Assembly: GCA_023700805.1 (NCBI GenBank) | Contig: JAMPYF010000018.1 | Coordinates: 1 to 64,000 of the forward strand | DNA: 64,000 nucleotides | Direction of reading: 5' to 3' | From: Sulfuritalea sp. | Lineage (GTDB): Bacteria > Pseudomonadota > Gammaproteobacteria > Burkholderiales > Rhodocyclaceae | Part shown: positions 371 through 62,380 of the stretch, piece after piece | How the letters are laid out: each line of letters begins with the position of its first letter | Numbering within the stretch: position 1 is the first letter of the stretch | Made by a program: the position numbers and the translations under genes | The notes under the pieces: model-generated | Database searches by the model: none | The model's input: the letters and a program-made list of their open reading frames with translations, nothing else | Told to the model about the DNA's origin: nothing

Positions 371-394
371 CCGTCCCGCCAGCGCCAACTCTTG
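371..394 (-). repeat. Dispersed 25-bp element, copy 1
   Basis: The minus strand reads CAAGAGTTGGCGCTGGCG, then GG, then ACGGCG, which matches the window consensus. It forms a close pair with copy 2, about 55 bp apart, in the glgP 3' flank. Confidence 0.8.
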
Positions 395-424
395 CTCAAT
401 TAAAGCTTCCAGGCTCGACCTGTT

Positions 425-450
425 CGCCGTGCCGCCAGCGCCAACTCTTG
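425..450 (-). repeat. Dispersed 25-bp element, copy 2
   Basis: The minus strand reads CAAGAGTTGGCGCTGGCG, then GC, then ACGGCG. It ends only about 8 bp from the glgP stop codon. Confidence 0.8.
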
Positions 451-457
451 ACCCGGC

Positions 458-2941
458 TCAGCCCAGCGGGCGCGGCACGGCTTCGACGTTCCAGATGGTC
501 TTGGCGTACTGGCCTATGGTGCGGTCGGAGGAGAACTGGCCCATGCCGGCGACGTTGAGGATGGCCTTCTGCACCCAGGCCGCCGGGTCGCAATACAGGG
601 CGCCGACCTGCTCCTGGCAGGCGATGTAGGCGGCGTAGTCGGCGAGCAGCAGGTAGTGGTCGCCCTGCGCGGTCAGGGTGTCGAAGATCGGCTTGTAGCG
701 CTCGCGCTCCTCGGGCGAGAAGAAGCCGTCGCGCAGCATGTCCAGCGTCTGCCTGAGTTCGCCGTTGCCGTTGTAATAATCCCAGGGCCGGTGGCCGGCA
801 GCGTAGGTCTGCGCGACTTCGTCGGCGGTGAGGCCGAAGATGAATATGTTCTCCGGGCCGACTTCGTTGCGGATTTCGACGTTGGCGCCGTCCAGGGTGC
901 CGATGGTCAGCGCGCCGTTCATGGCCAGCTTCATGTTGCCGGTGCCCGAGGCTTCGGTGCCGGCGGTGGAGATCTGCTCCGAGAGGTCGGCGGCCGGGAT
1001 GATGATCTCGGCGTTCGACACGTCGTAGTTGGGAATGAAGACCACCTTGAGCCGGTCGCGCACCAGCGGGTCGTTGTTCACGATGTCGGCGACGTCGTTG
1101 ATCAGGCGGATGATCAGCTTGGCCATGCGGTAGCCGGGGGCGGCCTTGCCGCCGAAGATCACGGTGCGCGGCGGCGCGTCGCCGCCGGCGCGCAGGCGGT
1201 TGTAGAGCGTGATGACGTGCAGCACGTTGAGCAGCTGGCGCTTGTATTCGTGGATGCGCTTGATCTGCACGTCGAACAGCGAATCGGGATCGAGCCGGAT
1301 GCCGAGCCGCTTTTCGACCACCTGCGCCAGACGGGCCTTGTTGGCGCGCTTGACGCGCACGAACTCGTCGCGGAAGCCGGCGTCGGCGGCCAGCGGCGTC
1401 AGTTGCCGCAGCTGGTCGAGATCCTTGAGCCAGCCTTTGCCGAGATGGCGGCTGACGAGTTTCGACAGCGCCGGGTTGGCCTGGTTGAGCCAGCGCCGCG
1501 GCGTCACGCCATTGGTCATGTTGACGATACGGTCGGGCCACAGGCGGTGGAAGTCGGCGAAGATGGTTTCCTTCATCAGGCGGGTGTGGATCGCGGCGAC
1601 GCCGTTGACCTTGTGGCTGCCGACAATGGCCAGGTGCGCCATGCGGATGCGTTTGCCCTTGGCCTCGTCGATCAGCGACATGCGCTGCCACAGCGCCGGG
1701 TCGCCGGGGTAGTGGTGCATCACGTCCTTGAGGAAGCGGTGGTTGATCTCGTAGATGATCTGCAGATGGCGCGGCAGCACGCGCTCGAACAGCGGCACCG
1801 GCCAGGTTTCCAGCGCCTCGGGCATCAGCGTGTGGTTGGTGTAGGCGAAGGTGCGCGTGGTGATGTCCCAGGCCCGCGCCCAGTCGATCTGGTGCAGGTC
1901 CATCAGGATGCGCATCAGTTCGGCCACGGCGATCGACGGATGGGTGTCGTTGAGCTGCATCGCCACCTTGTCCGGCAGCGCGTCGAGCGGCGCGCCCGAC
2001 TTGCTGAAGCGGTAGAGCATGTCCTGCAGCGAGGCGGAGACGAAGAAGTACTGCTGCTTGAGGCGCAGCTCGCGGCCCATCTCGGTGGTGTCGTCGGGGT
2101 AGAGCACCTTGGACAGGTTTTCCGAATCGTTCTTGTCCTCCACCGCGGCGATGTAGTTGCCCTCGTTGAAATACTTGAGGTCGAAATCGCGGCTGGCCTT
2201 GGCCGCCCACAGCCGCATGTTGTTCACCGTGCCCGTGTCATAACCGGGGATCGGGTAGTCGTAGGCCATGGCCATGACGTCGTCGCTGTCCACCCACTGG
2301 AAATGCTTCTTGCCGTGCTCGTCGGCAAAGTCCACCACGCGGCCGTGGAACTTCACCTGGTACAGCACCTCGGGGCGCGGGAACTCCCAGGGGTTGCCGT
2401 AGCGCAGCCAGTTGTCGGGGTGCTCGACCTGCTGGCCGTCCTCGATGCTCTGGTGGAACATGCCGTATTCGTAGCGGATGCCGTAGCCGTATCCGGCGAC
2501 GCCCATGGTCGCCATCGAATCGAGGAAGCAGGCCGCCAGCCGCCCCAGGCCGCCGTTGCCCAGCGCCGCGTCCTGCTCCATCTCGCGGATGTCGTCCGGC
2601 TTGAGGCCGATGCCGACCACCGCTTCCAGCGCGTCCATGAACTCCTTGTCGCAGCAGATGTTGAGCATCGAGTTCATCATGGTGCGGCCCATGAGGAATT
2701 CCATCGAGAGGTAATAGACGCGCTTGCGGTCCTCGACGTAGTAGCTGCGCATGGTTTCCATCCAGCGCTCGATCATGCGTTCGCGCAGCACCGCGGCGGC
2801 GGCGTAGAACCAGTCGCGGTCGGTGGCGGTGATCGGGTCCTTGCCGATGGTGTAGATCAGGCGGTGGACCAGCGAGCGCCGGATCGAGGCGGCGTCGAGG
2901 GCGGGATGGTCGAGCTCGGGCAGTGCGGCTGGCTTCTTCAT
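458..2941 (-). CDS. glgP: Glycogen/maltodextrin phosphorylase
   Basis: This enzyme cleaves alpha-1,4-glucan with phosphate to release glucose-1-phosphate in the cytoplasm, using pyridoxal phosphate. The 827-residue product has the usual family length. It carries the PLP signature EASGTGNMKLAMNGALTIGT near residue 665, with the Schiff-base lysine at about 671. An in-frame extension of 57 codons upstream is Arg-rich and unlike the family. The chosen ATG begins MKKPAALPELD and has AGGAAG seven bases before it. The gene diverges from the PilZ gene, and no other glycogen genes lie nearby. Function is secure; natural glucan preference cannot be read from sequence. Confidence 0.95.
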   Translation of the reverse strand: MKKPAALPELDHPALDAASIRRSLVHRLIYTIGKDPITATDRDWFYAAAAVLRERMIERWMETMRSYYVEDRKRVYYLSMEFLMGRTMMNSMLNICCDKEFMDALEAVVGIGLKPDDIREMEQDAALGNGGLGRLAACFLDSMATMGVAGYGYGIRYEYGMFHQSIEDGQQVEHPDNWLRYGNPWEFPRPEVLYQVKFHGRVVDFADEHGKKHFQWVDSDDVMAMAYDYPIPGYDTGTVNNMRLWAAKASRDFDLKYFNEGNYIAAVEDKNDSENLSKVLYPDDTTEMGRELRLKQQYFFVSASLQDMLYRFSKSGAPLDALPDKVAMQLNDTHPSIAVAELMRILMDLHQIDWARAWDITTRTFAYTNHTLMPEALETWPVPLFERVLPRHLQIIYEINHRFLKDVMHHYPGDPALWQRMSLIDEAKGKRIRMAHLAIVGSHKVNGVAAIHTRLMKETIFADFHRLWPDRIVNMTNGVTPRRWLNQANPALSKLVSRHLGKGWLKDLDQLRQLTPLAADAGFRDEFVRVKRANKARLAQVVEKRLGIRLDPDSLFDVQIKRIHEYKRQLLNVLHVITLYNRLRAGGDAPPRTVIFGGKAAPGYRMAKLIIRLINDVADIVNNDPLVRDRLKVVFIPNYDVSNAEIIIPAADLSEQISTAGTEASGTGNMKLAMNGALTIGTLDGANVEIRNEVGPENIFIFGLTADEVAQTYAAGHRPWDYYNGNGELRQTLDMLRDGFFSPEERERYKPIFDTLTAQGDHYLLLADYAAYIACQEQVGALYCDPAAWVQKAILNVAGMGQFSSDRTIGQYAKTIWNVEAVPRPLG

Positions 2942-3018
2942 GGCGGGCTTCCTGAAACAATACGAACAGCATGATACTCGCCGGCCGCGCGCTGCGCGGG
3001 GGCGGCCGCGCCGGCGGC

Positions 3019-3049: not shown

Positions 3050-3101
3050 CCGGATTCGGCGCTTCCCCGGGATAATAGCCGGCCCGGGAAAGGTCAGCCG
3101 A

Positions 3102-3812: not shown

Positions 3813-4288
3813 ACGCCGGCGTCCGCCAGGCCGTCGCGCCAGCGCGCGAGCTTTTCCTCGAAGCGCATGCCGGCATGGGCCGGGCTGGTCGAGGGCAGCA
3901 CCAGCGCCTCGAAACCGAGGGCCTCGACTTCGCGAATGCGACGCGCCGCCATGCGGCCGTTGAAACAGACTCGCCGTAGCGGACTCTGTCTGCCGGGGAT
4001 TCCGCTTCGCGGGCCGGCAAGCGCCAACTCCCTGAGCTCGCCCAGCGGGTTCGGCTGCGCAGCGCGGATCGCCGTGTCGAGGCTGCCGGCGCGTTCGCAG
4101 GAGGCATAGACGTCCCAGATCGCAATGCCGGCGTCCTGCACCGCGGCGATGCGCGCCGGGTAATCCATCGCCGGCAGCGGCTGGCCGATCACCGCGCCGA
4201 GGATGCGCCAGAACTGGTTCTGCGGATGGGCGTAGTACTGCTGCGCGGCGAGCGAAGCCGTGGACGGAAACGAGCCCAGGATCAGCAC
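3779..4288 (-). CDS. DNA-deoxyinosine (hypoxanthine) glycosylase, UDG superfamily
   Basis: A base-excision repair enzyme expected to remove hypoxanthine or related bases from DNA. Visible are LILGSFPSTASL near the N-terminus, YYAHPQNQFWRIL (uracil-glycosylase-fold substrate pocket), a late FNGRMA and LPSTSPAH near the C-terminus. The GTG at 4288 is the only conventional start, but family sequence (TGLAPVIDARARV) continues upstream to a CTG at 4327, just inside the htpG 3' end, so initiation may be at CTG or the gene may be translated unusually. Residues near 90-107 (ELALAGPRSGIPGRQSPL) are an insertion relative to the family and coincide with an interrupted copy of the dispersed element. Confidence 0.8.
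   Translation of the reverse strand: MLILGSFPSTASLAAQQYYAHPQNQFWRILGAVIGQPLPAMDYPARIAAVQDAGIAIWDVYASCERAGSLDTAIRAAQPNPLGELRELALAGPRSGIPGRQSPLRRVCFNGRMAARRIREVEALGFEALVLPSTSPAHAGMRFEEKLARWRDGLADAGVQAPGTCSSSA
3971..4033 (-). repeat. Interrupted copy of the dispersed element inside the glycosylase gene
   Basis: On the minus strand GGAGTTGGCGCTTGCCGG is separated by about 40 bp from CGCTACGGCGAG, so the two halves of the consensus flank extra DNA that contains a hairpin (ACAGACTC/GGACTCTGT). The whole piece is in frame with the gene and adds about 20 residues. Confidence 0.5.
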
Positions 4289-4337
4289 CCGGGCGCGCGC
4301 GTCGATGACGGGCGCGAGGCCCGTCAGTCTTGCCGAC

Positions 4338-7893: not shown

Positions 7894-7909
7894 CCGCAGC
7901 GCCGGGCCC

Positions 7910-7937
7910 AGGAGTTGGCGCTGGCGCTACGGCGGCG
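7910..7937 (+). repeat. Dispersed 25-bp element, plus orientation
   Basis: AGGAGTTGGCGCTGGCG, then CT, then ACGGCG lies in the 48-bp gap between the convergent antiporter and mlaC stop codons. Confidence 0.8.
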
Positions 7938-12275: not shown

Positions 12276-12301
12276 GAAGAGTTGGCGCTGACGGAACGGC
12301 G
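12276..12301 (+). repeat. Dispersed 25-bp element, plus orientation
   Basis: GAAGAGTTGGCGCTGACGG, then A, then ACGGCG. It directly abuts the 87-bp tandem repeat that follows, so two repeat families are nested here. Confidence 0.7.
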
Positions 12302-12469
12302 CAGGGGACGTCGCGAAGCACTGCTTCGCGCCTGCGCCGGTCGGCTGGCCATGCAGGGCCGGCCGAGGGCCCCGACCAGGGGCCGAAGCAGGGGACGTCG
12401 CGAAGCACTGCTTCGCGCCTGCGCCGGTCGGCTGGCCATGCAGGGCCGGCCGAGGGCCCCGACCAGGGT
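12302..12469. repeat. Two tandem 87-bp copies of a GC-rich palindromic repeat
   Basis: Units starting at 12302 and 12389 are essentially identical. Each has the palindrome CGCGAAGCACTGCTTCGCG (centred near 12320 and 12407) and a second stem, GGCTGGCC/GGCCGGCC. A diverged copy lies at 53132-53180. The 484-bp gap 12213-12696 holds this array and one dispersed element. The remainder up to the kinase start shows no gene, only a plus-strand frame open through the repeats that looks spurious. Confidence 0.85.
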
Positions 12470-16930: not shown

Positions 16931-17148
16931 GTCTGTTGTCAGGCAAAAGCACACAACCCGCATTGTCCGTGAATGCCAGGTTGCGCCTGCTTGATGCCTG
17001 TGGATCGTCGGCCGGACCGTAGAGTGCTTGCCTGCTTTGCGGAATCTCGACTGGCTTACCCTCGACAACCGTTGCGGCCGACACAACGCAGTTCGCGGCC
17101 TGGCTTCCGGACGGCTCTCGGCGACCGGCAGCAGCCTGCCGCGCCCCT

Positions 17149-17366
17149 CCCCGCGCCAGCCGCCGCAACAACTGCGCCACCGTCGCCACCGCCTGCGCCG
17201 CCATGCGCCGCAGTTCCGGCAGGCAGGAGCCGCCGCATTTGAGCTGGGCCTGAACTTGTTCCAGGGCCAGGCCCTGGAGCTGGTCGCCGACGGCATCGAT
17301 GCGCGCCATCTTGACGATGCCGCGGCGCGGGTCGCGATAGACGGTGCTGTCGCCCAGATCGAGTGC
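17149..17366 (-). pseudogene. Duplicated fragment of the nasA 3' end
   Basis: This stretch matches the nasA 3' end (19090-19527) almost base for base, including LDLGDSTVYRDPRRGIVKMA and MARID. It has an internal in-frame deletion of about 180 bp and a 9-bp loss in the CGSSCGSC cluster motif. The large deletion joins sequences that share CAGGCCCT in nasA, so it probably arose by slippage between those 8-bp repeats. The nasA stop TAG is CAG here, so the frame runs on. There is no start or ribosome site, so it is a dead copy about 2 kb from the parent. Confidence 0.85.
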
Positions 17367-19013: not shown

Positions 19014-19125
19014 GCCCTGCTTTTGCGCCCGCTGAAGATTCCATGCCGGCCGCCTCGGCCTACGAGCCGACCATTACGCCAGCCCGCCTCGACGCTCCCC
19101 GCGCCACGCGCGGCCACCGCAACAA

Positions 19126-21858
19126 CTACGCTACCGTCACCACCGCCTGCGCCGCCATGCGCCGCAGTTCCGGCAGGCAGGAGCCGCAGGAACTGCCGCA
19201 TTTGAGTTGCGCCTGAACTTGCTCCAGGGCCAGGCCCTGGCCGAGCAGGGCCTTGATGTCGGTATCGGCTACGCCGAAGCAGTTGCACACCGTGCGTCCG
19301 GCCGGGACCAGGCCGGCGGGCGGCTGGGCCGCCGGGGCGAACAGCCAGCGGCGCAGGTCGCCCAGCGGGCGGCCGCTTTGCATCAGCTCGCGCAGCCAGT
19401 CGGCGGCGGCGGTTTCGCCGGCCAGCAGCAGGCCCTTGAGCTGGTCGCCGGCGGCATCGATGCGCGCCATCTTGACGATGCCGCGGCGCGGGTCGCGATA
19501 GACGGTGCTGTCGCCCAGATCGAGTGCGGCGACCAGCAGGGCCAGCCTGTCGTCCGCCAGCGGCTCGGCGCCGGCGACGTTCAGCGCCAGCAGCGGATGA
19601 TCGCGCCCGGCCAGGGTCAGCGCGGCGTAGTCGAATTGCGGCAGGAAATGCGCCAGGCGCGCACGCCAGACCAGCAGTTCTTCTTCCGGCTCGGCCGTTT
19701 CGGCGGCGCGCAGCAGCACCAGGCGCCAGGGCAGTTCGGCGCGCTCGACGCGGATCGCGGCGTGCTTGAGTTCGGGCTGTTTCGAGACCGGGTCGGTGGC
19801 TGCGGGCATCAGTTGATTGACGCCGGCGTGGGACAACGAGCGCCCGCCCCAGTGCATCGCGGCGAAGGCCTGGCCCGGCTTCAGTTCCTCGCTCGCGGAT
19901 ACGGGCAGGACGATCTCGCCGCGCCGGCTGGCGACGCGCGCCAGGTCGCCTTCCTTGAAGCCGCGCCGCTCGAGGTCGGCCGGGTTCAGCAAGAGGCGCG
20001 GCGCCGGCTCGTGGGCGCACAGGCGCGTCGCGCGGCCGCTGCGGCTCATGCCGTGCCACTGGTCGCGCAGGCGGCCGGTGGTGAGGCGCAACGGGAAGCG
20101 CGCATCGGGCGCTTCGGCGGTCAGGTTGAAGCTCAGCGGCACGAAGCAGGCGCGGCCGTCGGCCGTGGCGAAGCGGTGATCGGCGTAGAGGCGCGCCTGC
20201 CCGCTCGTGGCGCCGGCGGGGTAGGGCCATTGCTGCGGGCCGTCTCGTTCCAGCACGGCATGGCTCAAGCCGCCGATGTCGAGGTCGCGGCCGCGCGTGG
20301 TGGCGACGTGTTCGGCAAATACCTCGGCGGTAGCGGCGAAGGCGAAGTGCTGCGCCGTGTCGCCAGCGCCAACTCTTGCGGCCAGCCGCCGTGCGAAATC
20401 GGCGGCGATATTCCAGTCGGCGCGGGCCTCGCCGGGCGGCGCCACCGCCGCGCGCACGCGCGAGATGCGGCGCTCGGAATTGGTCACCGTGCCTTCCTTC
20501 TCGCCCCAGCTCGCGGCCGGCAGCAGCAGGTCGGCGTAGGCCGCGGTTTCGATGTCGGCAAAGGCGTCCTGCACCACGACGAACTCGGCCTTCTGCAAGG
20601 CTTCGCGCACGCGGGTCTGGTCGGGCAGCGAATGCGCGGGGTTGGTGCAGGCGATCCACACCGCCTTGATCTTGCCCTCGCGCAGCGCGTCGAACATGTC
20701 GACCGCGGTTTTGCCCGGCGTTGCCGGAAGCGCCGGCACGCCCCACAGCGCGGCGAGTTCCTCGCGGTCGGCGGCATCGCTCAGCGTGCGATGGCCCGGC
20801 AGCAGATTGGCCATCGCGCCGACCTCGCGCCCGCCCATGGCATTGGGCTGGCCGGTCAGCGAGAACGGCCCCATGCCGGGCCGGCCGATCTTGCCGGTGG
20901 CGAGATGCAGGTGGATCAGCGCGGCATTGTTGGCGGTGCCGTGCGAGGACTGGTTGAGACCCTGGCACCACATCGACAGTGGCGCCCGGGCCGCACCGAA
21001 CCAGTGCGCCGCGGTGACGATGTCGTCGGCCGACACTCCGCAACTGGCGGCTGCGGCGGCCGGCGTCAGTTCGCGCAACTGCGCGCGCAGGGCGGCGAAG
21101 CCGCTGGTGTGCGCGGCGATGAAGGCCTCGTCGACCAGGCCTTCCCAGAGCAACACATGCAGCATCGCGCTGTAGAGAATCGCGTCGCTGCCCGGCGTGA
21201 TCGCCAGGTGCAGGTCGGCCATCGCCGCGGTGTCGGTGCGGCGCGGGTCGATCACGACGATTTTCAGATCGGGATTCGCCGCCCTGGCGTCCTCGATGCG
21301 GCGGAACAGCACCGGATGCGCCCAGGCCGTGTTGCTGCCGGCCAGCAGGAACAGGTCGGCCAGCGCGATGTCCTCGTAACTGCAGGGCACCGCATCGGCG
21401 CCCAGCGTGGCCTTGTAGCCGGCCACGGCCGAGGACATGCACAGGCGCGAATTCGAGTCGATGTTGTTGGTGCCGACCACGGCGCGCGCGAGCTTGTTGA
21501 AGACGTAGTAGTCCTCGGTCAGCAGCTGGCCGGAAACGTAGAAGGCCACGGCGTCCGGGCCATGCTCAGCGATGATCGCGGCGAAGCGTTCGGCCGCCGC
21601 GTCGAGCGCCGTGTCCCAGCCCACCGCGCGGCGCGCCTGGTCGCCCGCGGCGCGGTATTCGGGCACCAGGGCGCGGCCGGTGAGCTGCGTGGTCAGGTGC
21701 AGGCTGGCGCCCTTGCTGCACAGGCGGCCGAAATTGGCCGGATGCTCGGGATCGCCGCGCACGCCGACGATCTTCGCCGTAGCGCCAGCGCCAACTGTCT
21801 CGATGATCACGCCGCAGCCCGTGCCGCAATAGCAGCAGGTGGAACGGGTCTCACTCAC
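19126..21858 (-). CDS. nasA: Assimilatory nitrate reductase catalytic subunit
   Basis: A cytoplasmic molybdopterin enzyme reducing nitrate to nitrite. From the N-terminus: the 4Fe-4S ligands STCCYCGTGCG and GRLCSKGASLH, the large Mo-bis-MGD domain (LCMSSAVAGYKATLGAD, MWCQGLNQSSHGTANNAA, DLLLPAASWGEKEGTVTNSE), the C-terminal dinucleotide-binding region (RLTTGRLRDQWHGM) and a BFD-like [2Fe-2S] domain (CNCFGVADTDIK, CGSSCGSC). Length is 910 residues from GTG 21858. Two copies of the dispersed element lie inside, giving ETVGAGATA near residue 20 and RVGAGDTAQ near residue 500. It is the last gene of the nrt-nir-nas operon. The start is uncertain because the 5' region is rearranged. Confidence 0.93.
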   Translation of the reverse strand: MSETRSTCCYCGTGCGVIIETVGAGATAKIVGVRGDPEHPANFGRLCSKGASLHLTTQLTGRALVPEYRAAGDQARRAVGWDTALDAAAERFAAIIAEHGPDAVAFYVSGQLLTEDYYVFNKLARAVVGTNNIDSNSRLCMSSAVAGYKATLGADAVPCSYEDIALADLFLLAGSNTAWAHPVLFRRIEDARAANPDLKIVVIDPRRTDTAAMADLHLAITPGSDAILYSAMLHVLLWEGLVDEAFIAAHTSGFAALRAQLRELTPAAAAASCGVSADDIVTAAHWFGAARAPLSMWCQGLNQSSHGTANNAALIHLHLATGKIGRPGMGPFSLTGQPNAMGGREVGAMANLLPGHRTLSDAADREELAALWGVPALPATPGKTAVDMFDALREGKIKAVWIACTNPAHSLPDQTRVREALQKAEFVVVQDAFADIETAAYADLLLPAASWGEKEGTVTNSERRISRVRAAVAPPGEARADWNIAADFARRLAARVGAGDTAQHFAFAATAEVFAEHVATTRGRDLDIGGLSHAVLERDGPQQWPYPAGATSGQARLYADHRFATADGRACFVPLSFNLTAEAPDARFPLRLTTGRLRDQWHGMSRSGRATRLCAHEPAPRLLLNPADLERRGFKEGDLARVASRRGEIVLPVSASEELKPGQAFAAMHWGGRSLSHAGVNQLMPAATDPVSKQPELKHAAIRVERAELPWRLVLLRAAETAEPEEELLVWRARLAHFLPQFDYAALTLAGRDHPLLALNVAGAEPLADDRLALLVAALDLGDSTVYRDPRRGIVKMARIDAAGDQLKGLLLAGETAAADWLRELMQSGRPLGDLRRWLFAPAAQPPAGLVPAGRTVCNCFGVADTDIKALLGQGLALEQVQAQLKCGSSCGSCLPELRRMAAQAVVTVA
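20353..20378 (-). repeat. Dispersed 25-bp element inside nasA
   Basis: CAAGAGTTGGCGCTGGCG, then AC, then ACGGCG, read in frame as RVGAGDTAQ within the molybdopterin domain. Confidence 0.8.
21775..21799 (-). repeat. Dispersed 25-bp element near the nasA N-terminus
   Basis: GACAGTTGGCGCTGGCG, then CT, then ACGGCG, read in frame as TVGAGATAK just after the first iron-sulfur cysteines. Homologues run more directly from the cluster motif into the GVRGDPEHPAN segment, so this looks like a short insertion. Confidence 0.75.
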
Positions 21859-22028: not shown

Positions 22029-22052
22029 GCCCATGGGGTCGCGGAAAATCTT

Positions 22053-22152
22053 TCACCACCAAGACACCAAGTTTCACCAAGGAAAAACAAGTCGATAGCT
22101 TTTCTTGGTGCTCCTCTTGGTGCTCCTTTGTGTCCTTGGTGTCTTGGTGGTA
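22053..22152. repeat. Long palindrome of CACCAAG units between nirD and nasA
   Basis: The left arm reads CACCACCAAGACACCAAG, then CACCAAGG. The right arm is CTTGGTGCTC units ending CCTTGGTGTCTTGGTGG. It pairs over about 30 bases and closely resembles the element at 24956-25063. It sits in the nirD-nasA intercistronic gap of the leftward operon. Confidence 0.8.
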
Positions 22153-22175
22153 AGGATTCTGGCTTTTCATGATAG

Positions 22176-28384: not shown

Positions 28385-28433
28385 GCTTTCGCGAATCTCC
28401 CGCAAACCCTTGTCGCGGCTGCAACACAGCCCG

Positions 28434-28458
28434 GAGAGTTGACGCTGGCGATACGGTG
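28434..28458 (+). repeat. Dispersed 25-bp element between nasT and the nitrate promoter
   Basis: GAGAGTTGACGCTGGCG, then AT, then ACGGTG. It is a slightly diverged copy lying between the putative enhancer and the sigma-54 promoter. Confidence 0.65.
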
Positions 28459-32339: not shown

Positions 32340-33016
32340 CGGCGGGCGCATCACCCGGGCTTGAACCGCATTACGCGCCGCAGCGGCTCGGCGACCGACT
32401 GGCCCTGGGCCTGGTCAAGCTGTTGCGCTTCTTCGCCGACGCCTTCTTCGCCAGGCGCTACGGCCACCGTGCCGTGGTGCTGGAGACGGTTGCTGCCGTG
32501 CCGGGCATGGTCGCCGGTTCGCTGCAGCACCTGCGCGCGCTGCGCCGCATGGAAAGCGATCGGGGCTGGATTCGCACCCTGATCGACGAAGCCGAGAACG
32601 AGCGCATGCACCTGATGAGCTTCATCCAGGTCGCGCGACCGACGCAGTTCGAGCGCCTGCTGATCCTCGTGGCGCAGGGGATTTTCTACAACTTCTTCTT
32701 CCTGCTCTACCTGGTGTCGGCAAGGACCGCACACCGCTTTGTCGGCTATCTCGAAGAGGAGGCGGTGTACAGCTACACGGAATACCTGGCCGGGGTGGAC
32801 GACGGCACTTATCGCAACGTCGCCGCGCCCGGCATCGCCATCGACTACTGGAAGCTGGCGCCCGATGCGTGCCTGCGCGAGCTCATCATCGCGGTGCGCG
32901 CCGACGAGGCGCATCACCGCGACGTCAATCACGCCTATGCCGACGTTCTTGCGCCGTCTCGCCAGCACCAACTCTCGGATCGAGTCCCGCGCAGGGGAGG
33001 GGACGAACCCGCGTAG
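32336..33016 (+). CDS. Alternative oxidase (diiron ubiquinol oxidase)
   Basis: A membrane-associated ubiquinol oxidase that reduces O2 to water without proton pumping. The diiron ligands are all visible: E50 in [11 protein letters not shown]89xxH92 in EAENERMHL, a Glu of LEEEAVYSY at 140-142, and E191xxH194 in [11 protein letters not shown]. The 226-residue form is compact. After residue 204 the family sequence ends and the tail ([17 protein letters not shown]) is encoded by a dispersed element copy, so the C-terminus has been rewritten. It overlaps DUF3309 and is followed by a PQQ dehydrogenase. It may protect against NO, cyanide or over-reduction. Confidence 0.9.
32952..32976 (-). repeat. 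Dispersed 25-bp element at the alternative oxidase 3' end
   Basis: The minus strand reads GAGAGTTGGTGCTGGCG, then AG, then ACGGCG. It supplies most of the last 20 codons of the oxidase and ends about 40 bp before its stop. Confidence 0.7.
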
Positions 33017-37412: not shown

Positions 37413-37438
37413 CGCCGGGTCGCCAGCGCCAACTTTCG
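37413..37438 (-). repeat. Dispersed 25-bp element upstream of the Gly-rich protein
   Basis: The minus strand reads CGAAAGTTGGCGCTGGCG, then AC, then CCGGCG, a slightly diverged copy. It lies about 105 bp before the start of the repeat protein. Confidence 0.65.
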
Positions 37439-37542: not shown

Positions 37543-37995
37543 ATGAAACCGATCTCCGCCGCACTGCTGCTGTTCGCCCTGGCCTGGCTGCCGCCGGCCC
37601 TGGCGACGGATCCCTGCGATTGCAGGGGCTACACCGGCCAGGGCGGCAGCTGCGACTCCGGATTGGGTGGAGCGGCCTACTCCGGACCCGGCGGACCCGC
37701 CTCCGCCGGCCATGAAGGCCCGTGCTATGCGGGACAGGGCGGCCCGCGCTATGCCGGACCGGGCGGCCCGCTTTACGCCGGACCCGGCGGGACGCTCTAT
37801 GCCGGTCCTGGCGGAGCGGCCTATGCCGGACCGGGCGGACCGGCAGATGCCGCGCCCGGCGGGCCGGCCCACAACGGACCTGGCGGACCCGCCTACGCGG
37901 GGCCGGGCGGCGCCTGCTATGCCGGACCGGGCGGGCCGTGCTACGCCGGTCCCGGCGGCACCGGCCAGGGCTGCGCCTCAGTCTGCCGTCGATGA
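37543..37995 (+). CDS. Secreted glycine-rich octapeptide-repeat protein
   Basis: A 150-residue exported protein with signal peptide KPISAALLLFALAWLPPALA, then CDCRGYTGQGG and about nine octapeptide repeats of the form GPxYAGPG, with CYAGPGGPCYAGPGG at the end and a terminal CASVCRR. The Gly/Pro period of eight and the cysteine pairs suggest an extended, possibly disulfide-linked structural or surface polymer. The DNA repeats are imperfect, so the protein pattern is under selection or recently expanded. I do not know a function. The last 18 bases overlap the opposing small gene. Confidence 0.75.
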   Translation: MKPISAALLLFALAWLPPALATDPCDCRGYTGQGGSCDSGLGGAAYSGPGGPASAGHEGPCYAGQGGPRYAGPGGPLYAGPGGTLYAGPGGAAYAGPGGPADAAPGGPAHNGPGGPAYAGPGGACYAGPGGPCYAGPGGTGQGCASVCRR

Positions 37996-53131: not shown

Positions 53132-53255
53132 TTCGCGAAGCACTGCTTCGCGCCGCCGGAGCCGGCCGGCTGTGCAAAGCCGGCCGTGGAACCCCAGTCA
53201 TCCCACGAAGCCGCAGAGCGGCGCACCGTAGTCACCCCCTCGCTCGGCGAGGGGG
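53132..53255. repeat. Cluster of GC-rich palindromes between the chemoreceptor and FNR
   Basis: TTCGCGAAGCACTGCTTCGCG (53132-53152) is the same palindrome as in the 87-bp tandem at 12302-12469, followed by the related GCCGGCCGGC/GCCGGC stem. CCCCCTCGC-TCG-GCGAGGGGG (53235-53255) is a perfect 9-bp hairpin of the C/G type. Together they fill the 181-bp gap. Confidence 0.8.
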
Positions 53256-53274
53256 CTGGGGGGAGGGTCGTCCA

Positions 53275-54048
53275 GTGAATTCGAACCCCGGCGCGGAAAA
53301 ATGGACCGGCGAGCGCGTGCTCGCTATCCATGCCTGGACCCCCACCCTGCTGTCCTTCCGCACCACGCGGCCCGCCGCCTTCCGCTTCACGCCCGGCCAT
53401 TACACGCGCCTGGGCCTCGGCGCCGACGATGCGGTGGTATGGCGCCCCTATTCGCTGGCCTCGGCGCCGCAGGACGAATTCCTCGAATTCATCGCCATAC
53501 TGGTGCCCGGCGGGGCTTTCTCGGAGCAGTTGAAACAACTGCGCGTCGGCGACAGCCTGCGCCTGGACAAGGCCAGCTACGGCTTCCTCACCGTCAACCA
53601 ACTGGCGCCGGGCAAGGATCTCTGGCTGCTCGCCAGCGGCACCGGGCTCGGTCCCTTCGTCTCCATCCTGCGCGACGCCGCGGTGTGGCAGGACTACGCG
53701 CGCCTGATCCTGGTGCACAGCGTGCGCCAGTCGGCCGAGCTCGCCTGGCGCGACGAAATCGCCGCGCTGCCCGCAAGGCATGGCGGCGCGCAGGCCAGGC
53801 TCAGCTACATCCCCATCGTCACCCGCGAACCGGGCGCCACAGCGCTGGCCGCACGCATCCCGCTGCTGCTCGCCGACGGCCGCCTCGAAGCCGCGGCAGG
53901 CTGTCCCTTGAGCCTGGCCGATTCGCGCCTGATGGTCTGCGGCAATCCCGAACTGGCGCGCGAACTGCGCGAGTTCCTCGGCGCGCGCGGCTACGCCACC
54001 AACCGCCGCGGCGTACCGGGGCAGATGGCCTTCGAGAAATACTGGTAG
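53275..54048 (+). CDS. Ferredoxin-NADP(+) reductase
   Basis: A 257-residue FAD flavoprotein. FAD binding: RFTPGHYTRLGLG and RPYSLASAP; NADP binding: WLLASGTGLGPFVSILRD and LMVCGNPELARELREFLG; the terminus is GVPGQMAFEKYW, the aromatic-ended FPR type. It would supply electrons from or to NADPH for ferredoxin and Fe-S repair. The GTG start follows GGGAGGG at eight bases; the in-frame sequence upstream comes from repeats. It follows the chemoreceptor and precedes hemerythrin. Confidence 0.92.
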   Translation: MNSNPGAEKWTGERVLAIHAWTPTLLSFRTTRPAAFRFTPGHYTRLGLGADDAVVWRPYSLASAPQDEFLEFIAILVPGGAFSEQLKQLRVGDSLRLDKASYGFLTVNQLAPGKDLWLLASGTGLGPFVSILRDAAVWQDYARLILVHSVRQSAELAWRDEIAALPARHGGAQARLSYIPIVTREPGATALAARIPLLLADGRLEAAAGCPLSLADSRLMVCGNPELARELREFLGARGYATNRRGVPGQMAFEKYW

Positions 54049-54729: not shown

Positions 54730-54755
54730 CAAGAGTTGGCGCTGGCGCCACGGCG
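54730..54755 (+). repeat. Dispersed 25-bp element in the gap after DUF3079
   Basis: CAAGAGTTGGCGCTGGCG, then CC, then ACGGCG: an exact consensus copy between the convergent DUF3079 and dioxygenase genes. Confidence 0.85.
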
Positions 54756-54793: not shown

Positions 54794-55474
54794 TCAGCCT
54801 CCGGCCTCCAGCACGATGTCGAAGCGCAGCGTATTCGCCGCCCCGGGCTCGGGCAGTCCGAGCAGCGCCCGGCGCGCGGCGGGGTCGCGGACCGCCATGA
54901 ACAGGCCATCGCGCTCGTTGCCGGCGCCGGCCGCGCCGGGCAGATACATCTGGGTCACCAGCAGTTCGCGCGTGCCGCGGCTGGCGCGGAAATGCACATG
55001 CGGCGTGCGCCCCGGATACTCGACCGGCGCTATCGTGAAGAAGCGATAGCTGCCGTCAGCGCCGCTCGTGGCGCGGCCATAGCCGCGGAACTGCGGGTCG
55101 AGCGGCTGCGGGCTGTTGTCGTGCGGGTGGTGGTAACGGCCGTGCGCGTTGGTCTGCCAGATTTCGAGCAGCACGCCCGCCTGCGGGCGGCCGGCGCTAT
55201 CGAGCACGCGGCCGACGATGGTCAGCGGCTTGCCGTGTGCCCTGCCCTTGCCGTCGACAGTTGTCAGGTCGCTCCCGGCGCGCACGTCCGGCTGCAGCGG
55301 ATAGAAGGGGCCCAGCGCCTGGCGCGGCGTCGCCATCGCGCCGGGCGCGGCGCAGGCGGCGCCCGGCAGCAAGACGAGCAGGGGCGACAGCAGCAGCAGG
55401 CGGCGCCGACTGCGCATGGCGGCGGACGACGGCGCAAGAGTTGGCGCTGGCGGTACGGCGAGACGGATCCTCAT
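54794..55474 (-). CDS. Intradiol ring-cleavage dioxygenase-like exported protein
   Basis: A protein of the protocatechuate 3,4-dioxygenase beta-fold family: ALGPFYPLQPDVRAGSDLT, GRVLDSAGRPQAGVLLEIWQ, the Fe-ligand region GRYHHPHDN, YRFFTIAPVEYPGRTPHVHF and TQMYLP. Tyr and His ligands appear present. The N-terminus has a signal (SRRRLLLLSPLLVLLPGAACA), so it would act outside the cytoplasm, as do some poorly understood members. The ATG at 55474 follows GGGAG and is 17 bp from the SDR stop. The dispersed element encodes AVPPAPTLAP between this ATG and the signal. A later Met (55417) has no ribosome site. Confidence 0.8.
   Translation of the reverse strand: MRIRLAVPPAPTLAPSSAAMRSRRRLLLLSPLLVLLPGAACAAPGAMATPRQALGPFYPLQPDVRAGSDLTTVDGKGRAHGKPLTIVGRVLDSAGRPQAGVLLEIWQTNAHGRYHHPHDNSPQPLDPQFRGYGRATSGADGSYRFFTIAPVEYPGRTPHVHFRASRGTRELLVTQMYLPGAAGAGNERDGLFMAVRDPAARRALLGLPEPGAANTLRFDIVLEAGG
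55435..55460 (+). repeat. Dispersed 25-bp element inside the dioxygenase signal region
   Basis: CAAGAGTTGGCGCTGGCG, then GT, then ACGGCG. It lies between the coupled ATG and the hydrophobic signal core, read in the reverse frame as AVPPAPTL. Confidence 0.85.
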
Positions 55475-56367: not shown

Positions 56368-58434
56368 TCAGCCGGTCAGCTTGCGGTAGATCTCGGCGAT
56401 TTTCTGCGGCAGCTTCTTCGCGTCGTCGATCACCGCATAATGCGCGGGGCCATAGAGCTGCGGCAGGTAGTCGGCGCCGTGGCGGTCGATGGTCACGCAA
56501 TAGCTGCGGATGCCGCGCTCGCGCGCTTCGAGCAGGGCGCGGCGGGTGTCCTCGATGCCGTAGCGGCCGCGGTATTCGTCGCCGTAGTCGTCGGGGCGGC
56601 CGTCGGACAGCGTCACCAGCAGCTTGTGGCGGGTGTTCTGGCGGGCCAGCAGGCCGGAGAGATGGCGCACCGCGACGCCCATGCGCGTGTAGTCCCTGGC
56701 TTCGATGCCGGCGATGCGGCTGCGCGTGGCGGCGTCGTAGCGATCGGCAAAACGCTTGACCGGGTAGATGTCGCAATGCGTGCGCGTCCAGCCCGAAAAG
56801 CCGTAGATCGCATAGCTGTCGCCCAGCGCCTCGATGGCCTCGCACAGCAGCACCAGCGATTCGCGTTCGGCGTCATTGACCCAGCCCTTGGTCGAACCGC
56901 TCATGTCGACCATGAACATCACGGCCAGCGAGCGTTCGATGCGGCGGCGGTGGATGAACAGGCGCGGCGAGGGCTCCGTGCCGCTCTTGCGGTCGGCGCG
57001 CGCCTCGACCTGGGCGTCGAGGTCGATTTCCTCGCCGTCGAACTGGCGCCGCTGCGGCTTGTCCTCGCCGCGCAGGGCCTCGAAGCGGCGGCGGATGCTG
57101 CGGATCAGGTGGGCGTGGCGAGAACGCACTTCATCGACCCAGGCGTGGTCGCCGACCGGCGCCTTCATTTCATAGAGATGGCACCAGCCATGGCGCCAGG
57201 CCGCGCGCCGGTAGTCCCACTCGTCATAGAAGGCATCGGGCTGGGTGGTGACCGTGACGGTGGCGGAACTATCGACGCCATCGACCGGCGACCAGGCGCC
57301 CGGCCCCGCCGCCTGCAGGACCTCGGGGGGGATCTCGCCGAGGTCCTGCTGCAGCGAGCGTGCGGCCTCGCGCGCCGGTAGCGGCAGGGCGAGGAATTCG
57401 GCCTGCGGGTCGACATGCTGGGTCTGGCCTTGCGCCGCCAGCGGCGGGTAGTCGGGATGGTCCTGCCCGCCGGCACTCGGATCGACGGCGCGCAGCACGT
57501 TCAGCGCCTGGCGCAGCGTCGCCGTATCGCGCGCGATGCGGACAGCGCGCACGCGGCGCGCGGCGAGCGGATCGAGGGCGCCGACATGCGGGAAATTCGG
57601 CGTCTCGCCAGCGCCAACTATGCGCAACTCGGCCAGGCAGGCCAGGCTGTCGGCGACGCTCGCCTGCGGCCGCGCCAGGGCCGCCGCGGTGGCCGCAAGT
57701 GCTGCCGGCCATGGCCCGCGCAGGCCGGCGATGTCGGCGGCGAGGCCGGGCAGGTCGCGCCCCAGGCAGGCTTCGAGACGCATCGCCTCGAACAGCGCGA
57801 ACCAGCGCAGCGCAGCCTCGGGCGCGGGCCACTGCGCCAGTTCCGGCTCGGGGTCGATGTTGAAGCTGCCGAAGCGCGTCTGCGCCCACAGCAGCGCCGC
57901 GATGGCCTTGTACAGGCGGCGGTTGCCGGCGGCATCCGGCGCCGCGTCGAGGCGTTCCGGCAGCCACAGGGTTTCGCTGTCGGTCCAGGCCCGGGGCCCG
58001 GCGACCAGCTTCAGCGGCCGGCCTTCGAGCGCATGCAGGAAGCGCGACAGGCGGCCCTCGATCGCGCCGAAGGCTACGCCCTCCTGCGATTCGAAGGCGC
58101 CGGCGCGGTGTGCCGCGGCGAAGTCGTTCAGGGCGCGGCGCGTCGCAGCCAGGCCGCTGCGATCGTAGGCATCGAGACCGGCGCGCGCCCAGTCGTCGAG
58201 CTGCGCGCCTAGGCTGGCCGCCTGCTCCGCGGCGCGCGAGGCGATCAGCCAGCCCAGATCGTCCGAGGTCTGCGCGGCGACACCGGCCCAGTGCAGCACG
58301 CGCTCCTGCAGTTCGCGCGGCAGGGCTTCGAGCAGCGCCGCCGGCTCCGCCGCCGAGCGCTGACGCAGCGACAGCAGCAGCAGTTCGTCGAGCCGCGCTT
58401 CGAGTTCGTGAGCGAAGAGCTTGCGTTCGCCCAT
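56368..58434 (-). CDS. VWA-domain activator, NorD/CbbO type
   Basis: A 688-residue protein with a C-terminal von Willebrand A domain carrying an intact MIDAS, FMVDMSGSTKGW, plus YAIYGFSGWTRTHCDIYPVK and LVTLSDGRPDDYGDEYRGRY. The N-terminal 450 residues are helical. It partners with the adjacent MoxR-type AAA+ ATPase to insert metal into, or remodel, an enzyme: NO reductase (NorD) or Rubisco (CbbO). No norCB or cbbLS is in the window, so the client is unresolved; the nearby NsrR cluster favours NorD. A dispersed element adds IVGAGETP near residue 278. Confidence 0.87.
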   Translation of the reverse strand: MGERKLFAHELEARLDELLLLSLRQRSAAEPAALLEALPRELQERVLHWAGVAAQTSDDLGWLIASRAAEQAASLGAQLDDWARAGLDAYDRSGLAATRRALNDFAAAHRAGAFESQEGVAFGAIEGRLSRFLHALEGRPLKLVAGPRAWTDSETLWLPERLDAAPDAAGNRRLYKAIAALLWAQTRFGSFNIDPEPELAQWPAPEAALRWFALFEAMRLEACLGRDLPGLAADIAGLRGPWPAALAATAAALARPQASVADSLACLAELRIVGAGETPNFPHVGALDPLAARRVRAVRIARDTATLRQALNVLRAVDPSAGGQDHPDYPPLAAQGQTQHVDPQAEFLALPLPAREAARSLQQDLGEIPPEVLQAAGPGAWSPVDGVDSSATVTVTTQPDAFYDEWDYRRAAWRHGWCHLYEMKAPVGDHAWVDEVRSRHAHLIRSIRRRFEALRGEDKPQRRQFDGEEIDLDAQVEARADRKSGTEPSPRLFIHRRRIERSLAVMFMVDMSGSTKGWVNDAERESLVLLCEAIEALGDSYAIYGFSGWTRTHCDIYPVKRFADRYDAATRSRIAGIEARDYTRMGVAVRHLSGLLARQNTRHKLLVTLSDGRPDDYGDEYRGRYGIEDTRRALLEARERGIRSYCVTIDRHGADYLPQLYGPAHYAVIDDAKKLPQKIAEIYRKLTG
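57601..57624 (-). repeat. Dispersed 25-bp element inside the NorD-like gene
   Basis: The minus strand reads CATAGTTGGCGCTGGCG, then AG, then ACG. It is read in frame as IVGAGETPNF, the same VGAGxT frame as both NasA copies. Confidence 0.7.
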
Positions 58435-59271: not shown

Positions 59272-59298
59272 CGCGGTACCTGTTTCGACAACTGTCTA

Positions 59299-59330: not shown

Positions 59331-60776
59331 AGGCTGCTTGGCCTCGTCGGCCAGGCGCTTCTTCAGTTCGCGCAGCCGCGAATCCACTTGCGACTGCTCG
59401 TAGAAATTGCCGTCGCCGGCCTTTTGCGCCAGTTCCAGCTGTTCCACGGCCTGCGGCACCTGGCCCAGCAGCGCATAGCTTTCGGCCTGGGCGCGATGCT
59501 GCTGCAGGCGCCTGCCGAGCAGCGACCAGGTCTGCGCCTGCAGGGCATGCATCTTGGCGTCCGAGGGGTAGTTCAGCAGTTCGTCCTCGGTGACCTTGAT
59601 CGCCTGCTGCGGCTGGCGCGCCTCCAGCAGGGATTCGACCAGGCCGTAGGCGATCGCGCGCTCCTGCGGAAAGCGCGGCTGCGCGTCGCGCAGTATCTTC
59701 ACCGCGCCGGCCGCGTCACCCTGCTTCAGGCGCAGCTGCGCGGCCAGCGTTTCTATCATCGGCGACACCGCCTTGAGGCGGCGCAGTTCGCCCATCTGCT
59801 TTTCCGCCGCCGCGAGATTGCGCTCCCGCAATTGCGCCTGGGCCAGGCCGTAGCGCACGGCGGCTTCGCTGCCGGCGAAGCTGCGATCCTTGAGCCGGGC
59901 TTCGAACTCGGTCACCGCGTCGCGCGGCGTGCCATCCTGCGCGCGCAGCTTGGCGCGCACCAGCTGGAACTCGAGCGAATCCGCCACCTGCCGGTAGGGC
60001 CGCGACTGGATTCGGTTGCCCATGTCGGCCAGGCGCTCGGTGGTCAGCGGATGGGTCCGCAAATAGCCCGGCGCGTTGTTTTCATACAGGCGCCCGAACT
60101 TTTGCAGGCGCTCGAAAAAACTGCTCATGCCGCGAATATCGAAGCCCGAACGCTCCAGCACGCCGAGGCCGAAACGGTCGGCCTCGCGCTCGAAATCGCG
60201 CGAGTAGTTGAGTTGGTTCTGGATCGCCGCACCCTGCCCGGCCATGGCCGCGCCCATGGCCAGATCCGGGCTGCTGCGCGCCGCGAGGATCGCCACCGCG
60301 AGCGCCAGCAGGCTGGTCACCTGGCCCTGCCCCGACTTGTTGACCAGGCGCGCCAGGTGGCGCTGCGTGACGTGGGAAATTTCGTGCGCCAGCACCGAGG
60401 CCAGCTCCGATTCGGAGGCGGCCGCGAGGATCAACCCGGTATGCACGCCGATGAAGCCGCCGGGCATGGCGAAGGCGTTGAGCGTCGTGTCGCGCAGCGC
60501 GAAGAACTCGAATTCCTGGCGCGCTTCCGCGCTCTGCGCGGCCAGCCGGTTGCCCAGCCGGTTGAGGTAGCTGGTGACCTCGGGGTCATCGAGCCATGCC
60601 GGATCGCGCCGGATGTCGAGCATCACCGATTCGCCGATGCGCCTTTCCATGGCCGGCGAGAACTCGGCCTGCGCCGCTTCGCCGAGGTCGGGCAGGCCGT
60701 CGGCCACCGACAGGGCCGGTGCCGAAAGAATGCCGAAACCGAGAATCAGGGTGCTGGCAAGCGGATAAAATTTCAT
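59316..60776 (-). CDS. bepA: Periplasmic M48 metalloprotease/chaperone BepA
   Basis: A 486-residue exported protein with signal peptide [20 protein letters not shown], an M48 peptidase domain (zinc motif [12 protein letters not shown], third ligand region [14 protein letters not shown]) and a C-terminal tetratricopeptide-rich half. BepA controls LptD and outer-membrane protein assembly quality. The start MKFYPLAS is preferred over an upstream Met that would put Arg/His before the signal. It diverges from moaC across 48 bp. Confidence 0.92.
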
Positions 60777-60824
60777 ACCGCTATGATAGCGGCTCCGCAA
60801 AAACCAGTTGTGACAGCGTATTTC

Positions 60825-61328
60825 ATGAATTCACCAAAGAAGCCCGCCAGCCCGCTGACCCACTTCGATGGCGCCGGCCAGGCGCACATGGTCGACGTCG
60901 GCGCCAAGAGCGAAACCACGCGCGTGGCGCGCGCCCGGGGCCATATCCGCATGGCAGCGGCGACCTTCGCCCTGATCGAAAACGGCTCGGCCAAGAAGGG
61001 CGACGTGCTCGGCATTGCGCGCATCGCCGCGATCCAGGGATCCAAGCGCACCGCCGAGCTGATCCCGCTGTGCCATCCGCTGGCGCTGACGCGCGTCGCC
61101 GCCGAATTCACGCTCGATGCCGGACTCCGGCGCGTGACGCTGGAGGTGACGGCGGAAACCGTGGGCCGCACTGGCGTCGAGATGGAGGCGCTGACCGCGG
61201 TATCGGTCGGCCTGCTCACCATCTATGACATGTGCAAGGCCGCCGACCGCGGCATGGTCATCGAAGACATCCGCCTGCTGGAGAAGGCCGGCGGCAAATC
61301 CGGACACTGGCTGGCAGACGACAAATGA
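60825..61328 (+). CDS. moaC: Cyclic pyranopterin monophosphate synthase
   Basis: A 167-residue molybdenum cofactor enzyme that makes cPMP with MoaA. Conserved motifs: [70 protein letters not shown] and [16 protein letters not shown]. The expected cofactor user in this window is NasA. A second upstream Met would add 14 residues; neither has a clear ribosome site. The stop overlaps the ctaA start (ATGA), an uncommon pairing. Confidence 0.95.
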
Positions 61329-62380
61329 ACTCGAGCAATTCGCAACGCGCCCTGGCCTGGTGGCTGTTCGCCTGCTGCGCCATGGTGTTCCTGACCATGG
61401 TGGTCGGCGGCGTGACGCGCCTGACCCACTCGGGCCTGTCCATCGTCGAATGGAAGCCGCTGATCGGCGCCCTGCCGCCGCTGACCCACGCCGACTGGCT
61501 GGAACTCTTCGCCAAGTACCAGCAGACGCCGGAGTTCATCCAGCGCAACCACGACATGACGCTCGACGGCTTCCAGTTCATCTTCTGGTGGGAATGGGCG
61601 CACCGCCTGCTCGGCCGCTCGATCGGCCTGGTGTTCGTCATCCCCTACGCCTGGTTCCTGCTGCGCGGCCGCTTGCGCGGCGCGCTGGCGGCCAAGGTGT
61701 TCGGCTTCTTCATCCTCGGCGGCCTGCAGGGCGCGATGGGCTGGTACATGGTCAAGAGCGGCCTGGTCGACGATCCGCGCGTGTCGCAGTACCGTCTGGC
61801 CGCGCACCTCGGGCTGGCCTTCGTGCTGTTCGGCCTGATGGCCTGGACCGGATTGGGTATGCTGCAGCCGCGGAATGCCAATGGCGCCGTCTCGCCAGCG
61901 TCAACCCACCAGGGAATACCGCTTCGCATAACTTTCACGCGACGGCTCGGCAACTGGCTGGTGGCGCTGGTCTTCATCATGGTGCTGTCGGGCGCGCTGG
62001 TCGCCGGCATCCGCGCCGGCCTGGCCTACAACACCTTTCCGCTGATGAACGGGCATTTCGTGCCGCCCGAGATCTTCATGGTCGAGCCGCTATGGCTGAA
62101 CTTCTTCACCAACATGGCCACGGTGCAGTTCGACCACCGCATGATCGCCTGGCTGCTGATGGGACTGATCCCCTGGTATTCCTGGCGCATATGGAAGGAG
62201 ACGCCCGCGGCGCGCACACCGGCCCTGGTGCTGACGCTGTGGCTGGCGGTGCAAGTGAGCTTGGGCATCGCCACGCTGCTGCTGCAGGTGCCGGTGGCCC
62301 TCGCCGCCGCGCACCAGGCCGGAGCGATGGTGCTGTTCGGCCTGCTGATCTGGGCGAATCACGCGATCCGGCGGGCGTGA
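61325..62380 (+). CDS. ctaA: Heme A synthase, COX15/CtaA type
   Basis: A 351-residue membrane protein that oxidises heme O to heme A for aa3-type oxidases. Eight helices are apparent. Signatures are [54 protein letters not shown] and [11 protein letters not shown], giving the paired heme His ligands. A dispersed element gives GAVSPAST in the loop near residue 190, between helices 4 and 5, where length variation is tolerated. No cox or ctaB genes are in the window. Confidence 0.93.
61886..61908 (-). repeat. Dispersed 25-bp element inside ctaA
   Basis: The minus strand reads GGGTTGACGCTGGCG, then AG, then ACGGCG. It is a diverged copy in the ctaA interhelix loop, read in the reverse frame. Confidence 0.6.

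Follow-up and report, generated by a model that had tools for sequence, protein, structure and literature searches.

A dispersed bipartite 26-bp word with lineage-specific dialects in Sulfuritalea and related genera: a candidate DNA uptake sequence

The stretch of DNA analysed here (the window) comprises the first 64,000 nucleotides of contig JAMPYF010000018.1 from a Sulfuritalea sp. assembly of the family Rhodocyclaceae (GCA_023700805.1), and it is dotted, between and within its genes, with copies of a short dispersed element, CAAGAGTYGGCGCTGGCG-VB-ACGGCG. The element is 26 bp long, has sharp ends, is not palindromic, and holds a pair of nearly free bases (NN) ahead of its ACGGCG part. A scan of the window with all 26 positions, allowing up to 5 mismatches, found 13 sites, 8 of them intergenic and 5 in predicted genes, and a scan with a 25-mer at up to 3 mismatches found 12 matches compared to 0 in 100 dinucleotide-preserving shuffles. 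An earlier note on this DNA had described a dense, partly translated family in both orientations; the family is indeed real, lying far above shuffled and reversed controls, and the 13 positions listed for clear copies were right to within 0–3 bases (371 becomes 369, 57601 becomes 57598, and 61886 becomes 61885). The remark that the core is no simple palindrome agrees with the short form of the element, in which a reading of the sequence found no inverted repeat and no evident stem-loop. The statement that all six frames of the core are open holds only in part, since NN = CT, as in the copies at 7909 and 21775, creates a TAG in one reverse frame.

A search of the whole genome to which the window belongs (G000; 4.16 Mb in 63 contigs) with the 22-base core at up to 3 mismatches returned 693 sites (362 + 331), compared to 4 for a reversed-pattern control, that is, about one copy per 6 kb genome-wide rather than the one per 4–5 kb first suggested. 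Judged against base composition, the family thus holds up. The consensus, CAAGAGTTGGCGCTGGCG-VB-ACGGCG, was derived from 304 kb of G000 taken regardless of the element (the window plus 240 kb of contig C4). Its information content falls to near background within 1–2 bases beyond each end, the first base of the free pair is hardly ever T and the second hardly ever A, and the selective positions number 24, split by the free 2-bp gap. The distribution of mismatches in the same sample is bimodal, with 59 sites at 0–5 mismatches compared to 1 in the reversed control.

The core is present in every one of the 31 genomes of the genus, at 47–750 sites each (lowest in G017) with controls at 1–20, and 30 genomes of other genera contain 0–5 core sites, level with their controls. 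In a wider survey of 395 genomes of the family, covering 68 genera at up to 1 mismatch and counting as a carrier any genome with at least 50 copies, carriers were found in six genera (22 of 23 genomes of g1, 17 of 19 of g43, 4 of 4 of g70, 9 of 9 of g88, and the single genomes of g32 and g62). Beyond the window's genus, they comprise most genomes of five further genera of the same family; the exceptions in g43 are one genome with 33 copies and one with 0. The remaining 62 genera hold 0–16 copies per genome (controls 0–1), and one or more matches occur in 43 of the 68 genera; therefore sporadic copies are present in 37 genera. Two named records among the matches listed, Sulfuritalea sp. C5_metabat.bin.47 and Rhodocyclales bacterium NC_groundwater_749, carry the element, and longer stretches of these two are about 87–97% identical to G000.

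The word is written in lineage-specific dialects, at least three in number. At position 8, in samples unselected for the element, 54 of 59 sites of G000 have T and all 72 sites of G002, a complete genome sampled as 20 stretches totalling 400 kb, have C. Copies fitting the T form at up to 1 mismatch number 501 in G000, 411 in G001, and 485 in G016, and 30, 25, and 36 of these, respectively, are exact for C. These three, the nearest genomes by identity, make up the T group, a grouping made by identity and not from a tree; in the 28 other genomes of the genus the T-fitting and C counts differ by 0–14, so that nearly every copy there is C. A third variant, AGTCGACG, occurs in 62 copies in G011 and 6 in G098, with 1–3 in 11 others and 0 in the rest of the 395 genomes. 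The switch takes place in situ: 10 of 10 gap-free comparisons of T-group with C genomes, at 5 loci, differ as T/C, and the genomes so separated are still ~85% identical across aligned genes. Two of the 5 loci are adjacent copies in G001 (L109 3721 and 3752) that correspond to a close inverted pair in G002 (L214 19144 and 19175), both copies being T/C-switched; the pair is possibly a terminator-like hairpin. Within the genus, G017 has nearly lost the element, with 2 sites at up to 5 mismatches in sampled DNA, and the copies in G026 are mostly degenerate ones of the C form. Counting words in 152 kb of G017 and 117 kb of G026 brought up no replacement, and an extra dialect in either was rejected on that count. 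As a separate observation, lone exact copies in the C dialect occur in otherwise element-free genomes (G032, G033, G035, and other genera of the family); these are possibly transferred DNA.

Orthologous copies differ by single bases at unchanged positions. The T group yielded 30 distinct ortholog pairs from about 24 loci, each counted once; they mix loci from named records and from our numbered genomes, and include JAUYSD01 and G016, which may be one genome. In these pairs NN changed in 16 of 60 cells and the remaining 24 positions of the element in 16 of 720, and the 200-bp flanks differ by 8.6% on average. The earlier note had proposed a protein-tolerant inserted repeat resembling the Rickettsia palindromic element (RPE), a proposal that comparison with solved homologues does not bear out. 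Seven copies with 1–3 mismatches, in six host proteins, were chosen from 42 listed copies for their expected solved homologues; the alignment is ungapped at four (LpxH, ValRS, IlvD, and the first SelB copy), has gaps of 1–2 residues at two (PrmC and a HoxF-like protein), and meets a longer loop at one. Another copy within the IlvD gene call falls outside the aligned part. No insertion of the size of the repeat is seen at 6 of these 7 copies. Since a length of 26 bp cannot be divided evenly by three, an inserted copy would shift the frame, and a genome-wide, in-place T/C switch together with single-base differences between orthologues is not what one expects of inserted copies. The insertion reading was rejected since orthologues, examined for clean empty sites, and solved structures show mostly in-place differences. 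It had also been held that unrelated orthologues should not share the residues of the element, and at the window copy 20353 both orthologues aligned from other families are indeed without it. In the corresponding loop, imperfect AGTC forms are present in G013 and in 6 of 7 distant relatives aligned within the genus (G002, G004, G005, G012, G014, and G020), there is none in G008, the seventh, and G001 and G007 have long A forms (described below).

Placement relative to genes was scored with a home-made gene caller in the 304-kb G000 and 400-kb G002 samples, which hold 131 copies. Of the 59 copies in G000, 33 lie in genes and 26 between genes; of the 72 in G002, 42 lie in genes and 28 between genes. 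Genes thus hold 75 of the 131 in total, and 2 lie at gene edges; the intergenic density per 10 kb exceeds the genic density about fivefold in both genomes (6.3 vs 1.26 and 5.8 vs 1.2). The genic copies are read as RVGAGxTA (30), AVxPAPTL (22), RRxASAxS (13), QELALAxRR (9), PxRQRQLL (1), and KSWRWR (0), so that four of the six frames hold 74 of the 75. The strands are balanced (31/28 in G000 and 37/35 in G002) and mixed along the G002 chromosome, and a replichore polarity like that of FtsK-orienting polar sequences (KOPS) was rejected on this evidence from unselected samples. Copies are unclustered, with a variance-to-mean ratio per 5 kb of 0.74 and 0.91.

Table 1. Copies of the element and its long forms in the window.
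Feature	Position	Strand	NN	Remarks
Element copy	369..394	-	GG	Intergenic; 0 mismatches; direct pair with copy 425..450
Element copy	425..450	-	GC	Intergenic; 0 mismatches
Long B form	3972..4033	-		Hairpin insert (stem TGCCGG/CCGGCA)
Element copy	7909..7934	+	CT	Intergenic; orthologues in G001 (NN = CC) and G016 (NN = CT)
Element copy	12276..12301	+	GA	Intergenic; 2 mismatches
Element copy	20353..20378	-	AC	In molybdopterin oxidoreductase gene; reads ARVGAGDTAQ
Element copy	21775..21800	-	CT	In same molybdopterin oxidoreductase gene as 20353; reads ETVGAGATAK
Element copy	28433..28458	+		Intergenic; 4 mismatches; G001 orthologue cleaner (1 mismatch)
Element copy	32952..32977	-	AG	In predicted gene; 2 mismatches
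Element copy	37413..37438	-	AC	Intergenic by the gene calls used; 3 mismatches
Element copy	54730..54755	+	CC	Intergenic; 0 mismatches
Element copy	55435..55460	+	GT	Intergenic; 0 mismatches
Element copy	57598..57623	-		In predicted gene with weak VWA match; 4 mismatches
Long A form	61885..61936	-		In predicted gene; GAAAGT + TATGCGAAGCGGTATTCCCTGGTGGG + second part of element

A minority of copies, two of them in the window (Table 1), are long forms with a hairpin insert. In form A, AAAGT is followed by an insert of ~22–27 bases, TATGCGAAGCGGTATCCC..GGGA; the next base is C in 5 of 5 G002 copies read and T in 3 of 4 T-group copies. In forms B and C, a hairpin with the loop CCCGCGAAGCGGAATYC lies inside the second half of the element in either orientation, and the ends of its stem co-vary (TGCCGG/CCGGCA, TGCCTG/CAGGCA, TACCTG/CAGGTA, and TGCCCG/CGGGCA). 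The hairpin word GCGAAGCGGWATYCC occurs 2–50 times in each of the 31 genus genomes, with controls at 0–1. Of 44 distinct hairpin sites scored by script, in a set that excludes viral loci, includes 30 loci fetched via the hairpin word itself, and scores two C-like sites as B, 33 lie in forms A, B, or C, 3 are partial, and 8 are other, some of these being partial and some apparently due to chance. The copy at 3971 had rightly been listed as interrupted, being the long B form at ~3972–4033; at 61886, listed as a clear copy, there is a copy, but it is the long A form with its hairpin (~61885–61936). The B form in the window is 36 bp longer than the short forms, with 2–4 mismatches, found at this place in G001, G007, G012, and G013, and because these four relatives are short there, the insert was probably gained at 3972–4033.

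The window also holds other repeats. A separate dispersed repeat of ~85–115 bp with CCCCCTCGCCAAGCGAGGGGG or a close variant lies at 53194–53280 in the window and at 1868–1982 in L014, and is found as well in L061, L068, L086, L094, and L096, that is, on several contigs of G000 and its relatives. At ~22044–22160, a repeat of ~110 bp rich in ACCAAGACACCAAGG is 78–81% identical to six other places in G000 and has weaker matches in G007. Identical 81-bp copies, 87 bp apart, occupy 12301–12381 and 12388–12468, the first beginning directly where the element copy at 12276 ends, and tandem 24-bp units in an open frame (ten overlapping copies of a 136-bp reference) occupy 37634–37985 beside the element copy at 37413. 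The segments 17132–17366 and 19113–19527 are ~84–98% identical; apparently the end of the molybdopterin oxidoreductase gene is present here a second time, in partial form.

We propose, with a probability of roughly 0.65, that the element serves as a recognition word whose copies are maintained by a bias of uptake towards self DNA, and that it works like the DNA uptake sequences (DUS) and uptake signal sequences (USS) of other bacteria. We favour this because the constant word, the free gap, change in place, the genome-wide switch, permissive placement, and the lack of polarity match the descriptions of DUS; we speak, however, of a word working like a DUS and not of a proven DUS. In this scenario, a DNA receptor at the cell surface, most likely a minor pilin of a type IV pilus, would bind double-stranded DNA bearing CAAGAGTYGGCGCTGGCG-VB-ACGGCG, and DNA of the cell's own lineage would thereby be taken up by preference and then recombined into the chromosome. 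The uptake bias would pull near-matches closer to the word at any place where protein or intergenic sequence permits it, so that copies would accumulate through point changes and small indels, not through transposition. If the preference of the receptor then changed, between T and C at position 8, all copies would be expected to follow. We infer that an uptake receptor reads the word and that transformation drive maintains its copies, and the identity given above for the reading protein is likewise putative. The ComEC gene is found in 30 of the 31 genus genomes, and the one without it is 79% complete.

Several observations weigh against the uptake proposal. The uptake role and the reader of the word are both putative. 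ComEC is also present in 25 of the 30 other-genus genomes, and G017 keeps it even though it is nearly element-free. The receptor was sought by the family profile PF16732 (ComP_DUS), which has pilin matches in 30 of the 31 genus genomes and also in 25 of the 30 of other genera, and in all 22 carriers and non-carriers compared, with a mixture of pilin types; the profile is too general, no candidate was found with it, and it was rejected as a receptor marker because carriers and non-carriers matched alike. The word itself, with 24 selective positions, is much longer than the known cores of 9–12 bp, its mismatch distribution is cut sharply at 5–6, more abruptly than the description of DUS has it, and close inverted pairs are scarce (2 among the 72 sites of G002 and 0 among the 59 of G000). 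One genome, G293, has 0 copies though 17 of 19 genomes of its genus have at least 50. Core constancy is overstated because an exact match was the means of retrieving many of the ortholog loci; the contrast between NN and core within one element is not touched alike by such fetching. The second SelB copy falls on a loop 8 residues longer than in the solved homologue, the hairpin loop at the window copy 21775 is ~12 bp shorter and element-free in distant relatives, and small insertions do take part in the origin of copies.

Two further aspects of the distribution call for the same caution. The six lowest-GC 5-kb bins of each genome hold 0 copies, compared to 59 in the 55 other bins of G000 and 72 in the 74 of G002, with cut-offs (<0.62 in G000 and <0.58 in G002) that were chosen in small samples after the counts had been seen; G002 bins of GC 0.58–0.62 hold 7 copies in 12 bins, and a GC-rich word has lower odds of arising in low-GC DNA. 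The low-GC stretches are of mixed content: a 20-kb stretch of G002 at 1.90–1.92 Mb (L209) is a conjugative element that encodes TraN, TraU, McrBC, and HipA and holds 0 copies of the word, L190 carries an ABC-three-component system, and L181 carries ordinary transport genes. Exact copies also occur in viral contigs of IMG/VR, in at least 120 stretches; the 80 of 120 stretches taken as loci L271–L350 hold 111 sites at up to 4 mismatches in 712 kb, all of them C and mostly one per locus. These copies may lie in host flanks of proviruses or reflect carriage by phages.

The main rival to uptake is a chromosomal binding site for some protein, that is, a site for an intracellular nucleoid organiser or a replication or segregation factor, kept by selection on the chromosome. 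We consider this unlikely, yet it deserves serious attention, considering that a core both long and constant, a free 2-bp spacer within it, unclustered copies (0.74 and 0.91), their absence from the lowest-GC bins, and a lineage-wide switch would suit any recognised site. Sites of the KOPS, matS, or parS type, however, are expected to show polarity or a regional gradient, and neither strand polarity nor an obvious regional gradient is seen in the 20 stretches of G002. The 75 of 131 copies inside genes mean that the element is not a promoter site, the near absence of the element from G017 speaks against a chromosomal site of this kind, and we know of no chromosomal system with hundreds of 24-position sites.

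A mobile or inserted short repeat, of the kind of RPE, miniature inverted-repeat transposable elements, or repetitive extragenic palindromic (REP) sequences, with the hairpin long forms as full elements and the 26-bp copies as remnants, appears to us improbable. It would account for the 2–50 occurrences of GCGAAGCGGWATYCC per genus genome, for the 33 of 44 sites that sit in element halves in stereotyped forms, and for the longer protein loops at some copies. It would not account for a length that is no multiple of three when over half of the copies lie in open genes, nor for the 6 of 7 copies without a repeat-sized insertion relative to solved homologues; the short form in four relatives at 3972–4033 makes the long form the probable gain there, and an in-place, genome-wide T/C switch is unexpected for old insertions. 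Hardly any weight is left for the idea that the copies simply arise from base composition, codon usage, or widespread protein motifs like VGAGDT and EELAxRR. Genic copies do fall on such residues, for example EELALAARR in IlvD, and a near-match with 4–5 mismatches at L014 2105 reads FKVxAGDTVLIPPG, but this explanation is already refuted by the copy counts: 0 matches in 100 shuffles, reversed controls of 0–20 against hundreds, the fivefold intergenic excess, and the restriction to 0–16 copies in 62 other genera of the same family.

If the uptake reading holds, a more tentative picture may be drawn, which we regard as possible while leaning against it. Self-recognition for uptake would have arisen independently in a further family, with a bipartite word of 24 positions across a free 2-bp gap and at least three dialects, and the words would serve as preferred landing sites of a nested hairpin element (forms A, B, and C), a selfish sequence that exploits the tags, either as sites where insertion is tolerated or by travelling with them during transformation. 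Should the uptake reading prove true, genomes ~85% identical and separated by a clean single-base switch would allow the joint change of word and reader to be tested, and whether uptake bias alone keeps hundreds of copies could be tested directly. Carriers would also be marked as habitually transformable, and recently acquired DNA would be easier to spot in their genomes.

Searches of the open-licence literature found neither an uptake sequence mentioned together with Sulfuritalea or Rhodocyclaceae nor four 13–14-mers of the core, and among the matches listed for Sulfuritalea, repeats, and competence there was nothing relevant. Among known repeats, RPE shares with the element its occurrence inside reading frames; it is, however, a long palindromic insertion that lies in frame, and the element is short, non-palindromic, and mostly involves no insertion. 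REP sequences and bacterial interspersed mosaic elements are hairpin repeats accompanied by REP-associated tyrosine transposases. The inserts of the long forms resemble them in being short GC-rich stem-loops scattered over the genome, and differ in being mostly nested in a specific 26-bp word; the short form, from its sequence, has no evident stem-loop, and with 75 of 131 copies in genes it is not mainly extragenic. Like the highly iterated palindrome HIP1, KOPS, Chi, and matS, the element is a motif overrepresented genome-wide, but it does not share their distinguishing features: HIP1 of cyanobacteria is palindromic and 8 bp long, short length and strand polarity mark KOPS and Chi, and matS is confined to one domain.

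Self-specific uptake words are well established in Neisseriaceae and Pasteurellaceae, and in another betaproteobacterium sequence specificity is only suggested, according to the relevant portion of PMC4212676. The DUS of Neisseriaceae, as far as the passages of PMC3630211 used here describe them, are read by the minor pilin ComP, occur in dialects and in inverted pairs, and are permissively placed. The element is like them in its many dispersed copies, its single-base lineage dialects, its genic and intergenic sites, and its genome-wide dialect differences, and it is unlike them in that, in the same account, DUS are 10–12 bp long, with thousands of copies and many inverted pairs (PMC3630211). 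The element, a candidate uptake word of another family, has 24 selective positions interrupted by a free 2-bp gap, and its copies number in the hundreds, with few inverted pairs; GCCGT is common to DUS and the reverse complement of the element, perhaps a chance match. For both DUS and USS, sections of PMC1939737 describe a genic share, an intergenic excess, the absence of an orientation bias, and an origin by point mutation. The USS of Pasteurellaceae resemble the element in having an extended consensus (29 bp) round a core and ~65% of copies in reading frames in H. influenzae, and like it they are in excess between genes, show no bias of orientation, and arise through point mutation, as far as parts of PMC1939737 and PMC12616744 go. 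In those same parts, USS have a 9-bp core with weaker A+T-rich flanking parts (PMC1939737, PMC12616744); the constant part of the element, in contrast, is long, GC-rich, and bipartite, and it belongs to another bacterial group.

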